Shown: positions 19,394-21,704 of the stretch, piece after piece
Position numbering within the stretch: position 1 is the first letter of the stretch
Layout of the letters: every line of letters begins with the position of its first letter
From: Microbacterium algeriense
Lineage (GTDB): Bacteria; Actinomycetota; Actinomycetes; Actinomycetales; Microbacteriaceae
Direction of reading: 5' to 3'
Assembly (NCBI RefSeq): GCF_008868005.1
Contig: NZ_WAAO01000001.1
Location: 62,001-126,000 of the forward strand
Length of the DNA stretch: 64,000 nucleotides
Made by a program: the position numbers and the translations under genes
Notes under the pieces: model-generated
What the model saw: only the letters and a program-made list of their open reading frames with translations
Told to the model about the DNA's origin: nothing
Database searches by the model: none

Positions 19394-20412
19394 ACGCCCC
19401 CGCCCCGCTGCGCATCGCCGTGCTGTCGTTCGCGCACACGCACGCCCTCAGCTACGTGCATGCACTGAAGCAGATGCCGGGGGTCGAGCTGATCGCCGCC
19501 GACCCCGACGGCTCCACCGCCCCGGACGACGCTCCGCGCGGTGCGGCGCTCGCGGCCGAGCTCGGCGTCGCCTACGTCGAGACCTATGACGAGGCCTTCT
19601 CCTGGAAACCGGATGCCGTCGTCATCGCCGCGGAGAACTCACGACACCGCGGCCTCGTCGAGCGCGCGGCCGCCGCTGGCGTGCATGTGCTGTGCGAGAA
19701 GCCGCTGGCGACCACCGTCGAGGATGCGATCGCGATGCGCGAGGCCTGCGAACGCGCGGGCGTGATCCTCATGGTCGCCTATCCCGTGCGGTTCTCGCCC
19801 GTGGTCCGCGACGCGATCGCCGAACTGCGCAGCGGTCGACTCGGCCGCATCCTGGGCGTCACCGGCATCAACAACGGCAAGCTGCCCCAGGACCGCGCGT
19901 GGTTCACCGACCCTGCGCTCGCCGGCGGCGGTGCGCTGGTCGATCACGTCGTGCACTGCGCCGACCTGCTCGACGAGCTGCTGGGCGAGCGGGCGCAGTC
20001 CGTGCGCGCGGTGTCGAACAGCATCCTGCACGCGCAGCAGGAGCTGGCTGTGGAGACGGGCGGACTCGTCACGATCCAGTACCCCAGCGGCGTGGTCGCG
20101 ACCATCGACTGCTCGTGGAGCTGGCCGCTGAGCTCCGCGACCTGGGGCGGCGTCACGCTGCAGGTGGTCGCCGAGCGCGGCACCGTCACCGTCAGCCCCT
20201 TCGCGAAGGGCGTCGCCGGACACGATGCGCACGGCGAGACCTGGAACCCGGTCGGCGCCGACCTCGACGCCCTGCTGCTCGAGGAGTTCGTGCGTGCTCT
20301 GCGCGAGAAGCGTCAGCCGCAGCCTGATGCGGGCGTCGGGATCCGCACGGTCGAGATCGTCAAGGCCGCGCAGGCGTCCGCCGCGCGCGGAGGCGACGTC
20401 GTCGTCCTCTGA
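19390..20412 (+). CDS. Gfo/Idh/MocA-family oxidoreductase 2
   Basis: 340 residues, ATG overlapping the preceding stop (ATGA). It opens with IAVLSFAHTHALSYVHAL, a variant of the usual GxGxxG loop in which the glycines are replaced by S-F-A-H-T-H, as seen in a subgroup of this family. CEKPLATT has the conserved lysine, and LVDHVVHCADLLDELL the D/H catalytic region. Sugar or sugar-acid oxidoreductase, substrate unknown. It ends the rightward transcript before the corA leader. Confidence 0.88.
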   Translation: MNAPAPLRIAVLSFAHTHALSYVHALKQMPGVELIAADPDGSTAPDDAPRGAALAAELGVAYVETYDEAFSWKPDAVVIAAENSRHRGLVERAAAAGVHVLCEKPLATTVEDAIAMREACERAGVILMVAYPVRFSPVVRDAIAELRSGRLGRILGVTGINNGKLPQDRAWFTDPALAGGGALVDHVVHCADLLDELLGERAQSVRAVSNSILHAQQELAVETGGLVTIQYPSGVVATIDCSWSWPLSSATWGGVTLQVVAERGTVTVSPFAKGVAGHDAHGETWNPVGADLDALLLEEFVRALREKRQPQPDAGVGIRTVEIVKAAQASAARGGDVVVL

Positions 20413-20461
20413 CCAGACAGTCTCCTGAGCGAGCGCGAAGGGAGCCGTCAGCAGACGGGAG

Positions 20462-20700
20462 TATGCTGGGGCGTCGGGCCTTTCGGCCCGCACGAGTCCC
20501 GAAAGGCGGTGATGGCGATGTCCGACGATAGTAACGACGCCGCCCTCGCTGCGTCGCGACTCCCTGCGCTCTCGCGTTGACCCTTCGGTCCGCGACCGCA
20601 CGTCCTGCTCCGCAGCCGTCGGCGGCGTCCTCCGCCCCCTGACGAATCCCGCGCACGGCGCTCTCCGCTGCCGTGCGCCTGCGAGAACGGAGCCGCATCA
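20462..20700 (+). promoter_or_regulatory. Structured 5' leader of corA with mutually exclusive hairpins
   Basis: A TATGCT -10 candidate (20462-20467) would start transcription near 20473. Then: hairpin 1, GGGCC-TTTC-GGCCC (20476-20489); overlapping hairpin 2, GCCTTTCGG (20478-20486) with CCGAAAGGC (20499-20507), which hides the leader-peptide ribosome site; a long-range 9-bp stem GACGCCGCC (20536-20544, inside the peptide) with GGCGGCGTC (20621-20629); a competing local hairpin GGCGG-CGTCCT-CCGCC (20621-20636); and a 9-bp stem GCGCACGGC (20651-20659) with GCCGTGCGC (20670-20678), 21 bases before the corA ATG. All pairings are seen in the sequence; the regulatory role is inferred. Confidence 0.65.
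20518..20580 (+). CDS. Acidic 20-residue leader peptide upstream of corA
   Basis: The peptide MSDDSNDAALAASRLPALSR ends at a TGA 119 bases before the corA ATG. A near-consensus ribosome site, AAAGGCGGTG, ends six bases before the ATG at 20518, which is why that start is preferred over the in-frame ATG at 20512. The early Asp-Asp-x-Asn-Asp cluster is the kind of acidic nascent sequence known in E. coli to destabilise ribosomes when Mg is low, and MgtL uses that effect. By analogy this peptide may sense Mg for corA. The coding and ribosome site are seen; the function is inferred. Confidence 0.6.
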   Translation: MSDDSNDAALAASRLPALSR

Positions 20701-21704
20701 TGGCGCTCATCGACAACGGCGTGTACGTCCACGGACGTCGCGTGGAGACCCCCAAGAACCTGGACGAGACCTACCGGATGCTGGATGCCGCCGGCGGCAT
20801 CGCCTGGATCGGGCTCTACCGACCCAGTCCCGAAGAGGTCGCATCCGTCGCGCGGGAGTTCGATCTGCATCCGCTCGCGGTCGAGGACGCGCTCTCCGGG
20901 CACCAGCGCTCGAAGGTGGAGCGCTACGGCGACACCCTCTTCGCGGTGCTGCGCCCGGCGCGCTATCGCGACAAGGAGGAGTCGATCGAGTTCGGCGAGC
21001 TGCACCTGTTCGTCGGCCCCGACTTCGTGGTGACGATCCGGCACGCCGAGTCGCCGAACCTCGCCGCCGTGCGCGCCCGCATGGAGGCGCACCCCGAACT
21101 TCTCGCGATGGGACCGGAGGCCGTGCTCTACGCGATCCTCGATGAGGTCGTCGACGGGTACGAGCCGATCGTGGCCGGACTGCTGAACGACATCGACGAG
21201 ATCGAGGATCAGCTGTTCGGCGACGGAGACGACGACAGCGCGCTCTCCCGGCGCATCTACGAGCTCTCCCGCGAGGTCATCAACTTCCAGCGGGCGGTGC
21301 ACCCGCTGAACGGGATGCTGGAGTGGCTGCGTCGCGGGTCGGAGAAGTACCGCATCGATGAGGAGCTGCAGCGCTCGCTGCGCGACGTGCTCGACCACAC
21401 GATCCGCGTCAACGAGCGGGTCGACTCGTTCCGGGCGATCCTCGAGAACGCGCTGACCGTGCACTCCGCGCTCGTCGCCCGACGGCAGACCGAAGCCGGG
21501 TTGGCGCAGAACGACGAGATCAAGAAGATCTCGTCGTGGGCGGCCATCATCTTCGCCCCGACGCTGGTCGGCACGGTGTACGGGATGAACTTCGATGTGA
21601 TGCCCGAGCTGCACTGGGCCTTCGGCTACCCGATGGCCATCGGCGCGATGCTCGCCTTCGCGATCGGCCTGTTCGGAGTGTTCAAGTACAAGAGGTGGCT
21701 CTGA
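20700..21704 (+). CDS. corA: Magnesium/cobalt transporter CorA
   Basis: 334 residues. The long amino-terminal cytoplasmic alpha/beta and helical funnel is followed by two membrane helices near the end. The first ends in the GMN signature (VYGMNFDVMPEL) that forms the Mg selectivity ring, and the protein closes with the basic GVFKYKRWL typical of CorA. It forms a pentameric channel for Mg (and Co) uptake in the cytoplasmic membrane. The ATG at 20700 has ACGGAG upstream. It is preceded by the leader described at 20462-20700, so regulation after transcription starts is likely. Confidence 0.95.
   Translation: MALIDNGVYVHGRRVETPKNLDETYRMLDAAGGIAWIGLYRPSPEEVASVAREFDLHPLAVEDALSGHQRSKVERYGDTLFAVLRPARYRDKEESIEFGELHLFVGPDFVVTIRHAESPNLAAVRARMEAHPELLAMGPEAVLYAILDEVVDGYEPIVAGLLNDIDEIEDQLFGDGDDDSALSRRIYELSREVINFQRAVHPLNGMLEWLRRGSEKYRIDEELQRSLRDVLDHTIRVNERVDSFRAILENALTVHSALVARRQTEAGLAQNDEIKKISSWAAIIFAPTLVGTVYGMNFDVMPELHWAFGYPMAIGAMLAFAIGLFGVFKYKRWL

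Follow-up and report, generated by a model that had tools for sequence, protein, structure and literature searches.

Upstream of corA in the Microbacterium algeriense window (the whole 64,000-nucleotide stretch of DNA analysed here) lies a short reading frame surrounded by potential RNA structure. Is this a regulatory leader, and if so, what does it read? The original prediction was that an acidic leader peptide reports the Mg2+ level and switches competing hairpins, with the expectation that the peptide, or compensatory changes in the paired segments, would be kept among relatives. Several of the elements that it named are in place (Table 1): the -10 candidate 5' of corA, the GGGCC/GGCCC hairpin (P1), the 20-codon upstream reading frame (uORF) with its SD-like site, the complementarity between a 9-bp stretch inside the peptide gene (segment 2) and a segment behind it (segment 3), and a strong hairpin right before the corA ATG.

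Table 1. Elements of the corA leader in the window, in window coordinates
Feature	Positions	Strand	Remarks
-10-like hexamer TATGCT	20462-20467	+	transcription would start near 20474
P1, 5' hairpin GGGCC-TTTC-GGCCC	20476-20489	+	pair probability 1.0 in the window leader
Outer helix P2, enclosing the uORF start region; 5' strand GAGTC	20494-20498	+	partner 20558-20562, probability 0.99-1.0
uORF Shine-Dalgarno AGGCGGTGA	20504-20512	+	SD-like, near-consensus
Start hairpin of the window MFE	20514-20544	+	fold of the single window sequence
Alternative consensus start-codon hairpin	20515-20532	+	RNAalifold
uORF, 20 codons + TGA, MSDDSNDAALAASRLPALSR	20518-20580	+	ATG at 20518, TGA ends at 20580
Segment 2, GACGCCGCC, codons 7-9	20536-20544	+	partner is the start region or segment 3
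P2 3' strand GACTC, codons 14-15	20558-20562	+	
Segment 3, GGCGGCGTC	20621-20629	+	complementary to segment 2
Hairpin 5' of the corA ribosome site	20651-20678	+	probability 0.99-1.0 in the window leader
corA, 334 aa CorA-family transporter	20700-21704	+	Pfam PF01544, 1.1e-62

The TIGR00383 score of the window CorA is 194 bits, slightly below the cut-off of 200.75. A consensus promoter scan of the window leader found no promoter; by eye, TA-rich hexamers (TATGCT, TAACAT, TAAGCT, TAAGGT) stand 5' of the uORF in many of the printed relatives. No G+C-rich stem followed by a T run, as in an intrinsic terminator, was found in a scan of the window leader at 20380-20730. The 9-bp stem that had been thought to hide the uORF ribosome site (20478-20486 with 20499-20507) is literally there, but has a probability of 0 in the full leader. 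A complement of at least 7 bp at this place occurs in one of 65 non-redundant leaders, the window's own, and we regard this stem as a chance feature.

Distribution of the leader

Leader DNA stands in front of corA in near relatives of the window, including all 26 examined corA genes at least 89% identical to the window corA, and its core (SD, start codon and GATAGT) recurs before corA genes of 64-76% identity. Among corA loci from named genomes, 41 of the best 80 in the matches listed have the leader; the carriers include Microbacterium, Agromyces, a Glaciihabitans MAG and Arthrobacter sp. 35W. In the window's genus, 107 of 366 genomes gave a match to a first covariance model (E up to 0.05); of these matches, at least one (L230) is probably false, as no corA was found and the alignment is poor. 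Covariance-model matches in the order sample came from 8 of 347 genomes, one of them false (L187, inside a reading frame that by eye resembles a sigma factor). A second covariance model (E up to 0.1) matched 17 of 398 family genomes, in 7 of 85 genera, and a leader pattern search matched 8/398 genomes, including two matches (L175 and L179) that are not leader-like by eye. The window's own genus is part of the genus, family and order samples alike.

On a tree of 89 CorA proteins (53 with the leader and 36 without a detected one), the leader label is clustered, since it needs only 8 changes vs 28.5 when shuffled. The leader was gained or lost several times, or was overlooked in some genomes.

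Several sets of leaders were compared. The largest comprised 188 loci with the leader, which gave 112 distinct leaders, 65 after reduction at 90% identity and 25 at 72%; short leaders were left out before these reductions, and the loci overlap, with some places entering twice. The same set held 41 corA loci without the leader by the pattern. An earlier alignment (the first) of 61 leaders was reduced to 39 at 90% identity, and the pattern-match set left out three duplicates and L060.

Where downstream sequence could be examined, corA follows the leader in 75 of 79 model matches (28/28 for L188-L215, 37/40 for L216-L255 and 10/11 for L257-L267), and it is mainly because of this association that we call the leader a corA regulator. 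The sole copy seen before another intact gene (L262, G196:C1, leader at 208930-209039) has a uORF of 22 codons and precedes a gene for a DUF1003 membrane protein (Pfam, 9.7e-29); the other four genomes of that genus gave no leader match. In the window genome, the DUF1003 gene adjoins genes that by eye are MgtE-type-like and Mrp-type-like, a neighbourhood that offers a possible Mg2+ link. The leader at L216 (585-698) continues into a Ppx/GppA-like frame missing the domain start, and by eye still has an 11-bp pairing of segments 2 and 3; the one at L227 (502-601) has no corA downstream. Both are probably remnants of corA loss through deletions. The fourth exception is the probably false match L230. 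The window genome also encodes a second CorA homologue (L002, G000:C1:447685-448698), 67% identical to the window CorA, at which no matching leader was found.

The upstream reading frame

The uORF is 15-22 codons long in all 25 divergent leaders. When the sequence behind codon 9 was shuffled in 21 leaders of the 72% identity set (2000 trials), a mean of 2.2 and a maximum of 8 leaders had a frame of this length, vs 21/21 of the real sequences. The other two frames of the same 21 leaders mostly show much longer runs. The start codon is mostly ATG. A frame of constrained length behind a near-consensus SD argues that the uORF is very probably translated.

The peptide is another matter. The window peptide starts MSDDSNDAA, and its acidic residues were originally proposed as the sensor, a proposal that does not survive comparison. 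The amino acids are unconserved: the 25 divergent leaders encode 0-3 acidic residues per uORF, and 3 of 65 uORFs (L224, L236 and L172) encode none. Codon 3 in 61 leaders is Gly (30), Asp (23) or Ser (8), and codon 4 is Asp (54) or His (7); codons 4, 5 and 8 are almost fixed as nucleotides, with AGT as codon 5 and GCC as codon 8. Summed over codons 2-20, the variation at codon positions 1, 2 and 3 amounts to 8.9, 8.6 and 7.8 bits in 26 main-clade leaders, and to 24.7, 20.1 and 21.6 in 65 leaders. Since the codon positions vary about equally and some uORFs have no acidic residue, the peptide is unlikely to be the sensor. Conserved acidic or proline residues, an MgtL-type feature, were not found in the compared uORFs. 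A conserved run of codons for a single amino acid, as in an amino-acid biosynthesis attenuator, was not found: codons 8, 9 and 12 (and usually 11) specify Ala in the main clade, but divergent leaders have lost this run. Comparison of the sequences suggests that the uORF is conserved for its length and position, leaving the peptide sequence free. Among relatives, then, it is the reading frame and compensatory changes in RNA pairing that are kept, and not the peptide.

Within codons 4-5, AYAGT is almost invariant (ATAGT at 20528-20532 in the window). Commoner codons for Ser and Asp exist in such GC-rich genomes. Pairing with the start-codon region accounts for the constancy of AYAGT only in part. 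An out-of-frame stop as its cause was rejected, because ACAGT variants have no TAG.

Pairings around the reading frame

By permutation, we compared how well each segment pairs with its own partner and with partners taken from other species; these tests ignore phylogeny, and p = 5e-5 is their floor. Segment 2 reaches this floor with the region behind the uORF stop, both in 21 and in 25 divergent leaders, where neighbouring-codon controls give 0.38 and 0.72, respectively. Among 40 leaders with a corA at least 73% identical, 36 have the homologous site, and 322 of their 324 pair cells are kept in the helix of segments 2 and 3 (helix 2:3). Both sides have changed at pairs 1, 2, 7 and 9 (4/9 pairs), and it is these pairs that carry the information, as the site pattern itself fixes the middle of the helix. 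Compensatory changes of the kind looked for in relatives are thus found for helix 2:3. Segment 3 had also been expected to form a local hairpin as an alternative; the window MFE does contain one (20621-20627 with 20633-20639), but relatives give no support for pairing of segment 3 with the remainder of the leader 3' of it (p = 0.44 and 0.67).

For P2, cognate strands pair better than non-cognate ones in 30 main-clade leaders (p = 5e-5; controls 0.93 and 0.52) and in 25 divergent leaders (p = 0.0013; control 0.61), with p = 0.02 when a wider span is allowed. P2 and helix 2:3 would cross and so exclude each other; both covary, and the proposed competition between long-range helices is supported. 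The arms of P1 covary weakly (p = 0.042, 30 main-clade leaders). Support for the corA-proximal hairpin, compared only in leaders long enough to contain it, is confined to the main clade, where 28 leaders give p = 5e-5 (control 0.87); in 30 divergent leaders, p is 0.07-0.51 (unsupported) at fixed positions, and in 19 of the 25 most reduced ones it is 0.046-0.70 (hardly supported). Pairing between the SD-start region and the downstream leader is not significant (p = 0.20). Pairing of the corA ribosome site with the stretch behind the uORF has weak support (p = 0.011 in 21 leaders, 0.032 in 61), and its pairing with the uORF start region has none (p = 0.95 and 0.63). In L219, L226 and L186, which form part of a deep clade, folds and inspection by eye show that an inverted repeat around TCGACGGAGG encloses the corA SD, which may mean that corA itself is masked there.

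Models of the fold indicate that the uORF start region is likely masked, with several candidate geometries. The GGTG of the uORF SD is almost invariant across leaders. In the window MFE, SD bases 20506-20512 pair with 20546-20552 (codons 10-12), and segment 2 masks the start-codon region through the pairs 20514-20517/20541-20544 and 20519-20522/20536-20539; the mean unpaired probability of the SD in the window's own leader (L181) is 0.01. Because this start hairpin uses segment 2, it and helix 2:3 are mutually exclusive. RNAalifold pairs GGTG with CGCC (codons 7-8) and sets the start-codon region (G515, C516, A518 and T519) against ATAGT at 20528-20532. Its P3 and P4 pairs are formed in 99.2% of 504 cells in 63 leaders, with both-sided changes in 4 cells, in an alignment that was fitted to this very structure and whose versions slid by three columns score as well or better on covariation. 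The ensemble of the window leader gives the P3 and P4 pairs a probability of 0. In a less reduced set, the cognate test for the SD and start region gave p = 0.015, but with the reduced sets it did not reach significance (p = 0.27 and 0.30). Relative to the start codon, position -3 is a purine and -2 is C or T in 64/65 leaders, as the consensus start-codon hairpin would require, and by eye an A.C mismatch occurs in this hairpin in eight genomes, seven of one genus and one of another. Fold stability by itself does not stand out, with mean z-scores near -0.6 (uORF hairpin) and -1.0 (whole leaders), and forcing helix 2:3 or P3 each gives a fold about 7 kcal/mol less stable than the window MFE.

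Known leaders and possible function

The closest parallel is enterobacterial. According to PMC11552253, corA of E. coli and Salmonella has an upstream uORF (corL), two exclusive structures, a stem before corA and an involvement of Rho; expression of corA runs opposite to that of corL, and E. coli corA had been considered constitutively expressed. The window leader shares with corA/corL the downstream gene, a uORF in the 5' structure, exclusive folds and a pre-corA stem: it lies immediately upstream of corA and, on comparative evidence, contains a uORF. It differs in its start, as E. coli corL begins with UUG, whereas window-type leaders have a near-consensus SD and mostly ATG. Rho and the Mg2+ response, shown for enterobacterial corA, are candidate features of the window leader. 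By its anatomy it would work like corA/corL, but we do not file it as a member because there is no sequence-family match and its functional features are putative. Rfam gave no gathering-level match in the window and two sub-threshold matches to other families; Rfam 15 may lack the corA motif, which PMC6429828 reports from Gammaproteobacteria and metagenomes.

Other leaders share fewer features. The mgtA leader also has a uORF (MgtL) before a Mg2+ transporter gene and alternative folds, and its proline and acidic residues matter (PMC11552253), unlike the unconserved amino acids of window-type uORFs. The M. tuberculosis pe20 leader, according to PMC12810186, is likewise an actinobacterial Mg2+-related leader with uORFs, Rho and SD-sequestering alternatives, but it is an M-box and has another output gene; the M-box covariance model (ykoK, RF00380) matched neither the window nor the whole genome. 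The Corynebacterium ilvB-II uORF, also a conserved actinobacterial leader motif and first found by computational search, stands upstream of ilvB rather than corA (PMC10272879). In the literature searched on corA leaders, actinobacterial uORFs and Microbacteriaceae, we found no description of a corA leader of this kind, and the window leader is apparently undescribed.

The sequence comparisons point to a genuine corA leader, one that is conserved and combines a uORF with competing helices. An ordinary GC-rich 5' UTR, with ORF and pairings arising by chance, would fit the weak single-sequence z-scores, but is contradicted by the uORF length statistics, by covariation where controls fail and by the additional corA leaders that the covariance model picked up from other genera; we give it practically no credence. 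It is also very improbable that an acidic nascent peptide switches the leader by destabilising ribosomes at low Mg2+, as in MgtL. The acidic beginning of the window peptide, and the importance of such residues in mgtL, speak for this, yet it is contradicted as a conserved mechanism by the uORF comparison, in which acidic residues are few or absent and conservation lies at the nucleotide, not the amino-acid, level.

A ligand-binding riboswitch, with an aptamer overlapping a dispensable ORF, would account for a structured RNA with covariation and for the near invariance of AYAGT and CGCC, which pairing explains in part. We consider it unlikely, as an aptamer has no need of a stop held at 15-22 codons despite diverging sequence, no compact conserved core was seen outside the SD/start region, and there is no Rfam match. 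The signal might instead be translation stress, from antibiotics or through initiation factors, and not Mg2+, in which case corA would serve for protection. Its most constant features are indeed those of initiation (SD, start codon and first five codons), and antibiotics that target the ribosome are sensed by the E. coli TopAI-YjhQ uORF (PMC12121999); an output through corA nevertheless points to divalent-cation homeostasis, and we find this idea rather doubtful.

From the sequence comparisons, we believe that the leader probably acts in cis on corA as an RNA switch operated by translation. Transcription would begin just 5' of P1. Segment 1 (the uORF SD and start codon), with the bases before it, would fold onto uORF codons as a start-masking hairpin, and segment 2 (about codons 7-11) may instead pair with segment 3, 3' of the uORF stop. 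Because segments 2 and 3 flank that stop, the choice of fold must be affected by a ribosome on the uORF, which by initiating on it or reading it would select between the two exclusive folds. The switch would read the translation of a frame of almost constant length rather than the peptide sequence. Output to corA could run via a C-rich stretch exposed to Rho, or via structure near the corA ribosome site, both of which are favoured for such a switch since no intrinsic terminator was found in the window leader and the stretch between the uORF and corA is unusually rich in C over G in part of the leaders (top 10% of local sequence in 12/25, but not in 13/25). This C-rich stretch is compatible with Rho, though not general. 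As the signal we infer Mg2+ or general translation status, and Rho and the direction of switching likewise; Mg2+ sensing is plausible.

More tentatively, Actinobacteria may have evolved such a corA leader independently of enterobacteria, sensing intracellular Mg2+ through initiation on a uORF whose length is nearly fixed and whose sequence is free, with the SD and start codon self-masked and the codons alternatively pairing behind the stop. We regard this fuller version as possible without expecting it. If true, it would represent a separate class of Mg2+-responsive leader that works without an aptamer and without a peptide that arrests or destabilises ribosomes. The presence on corA, in another phylum, of a second uORF leader that is apparently unrelated would suggest that translation-coupled control of corA has arisen repeatedly.
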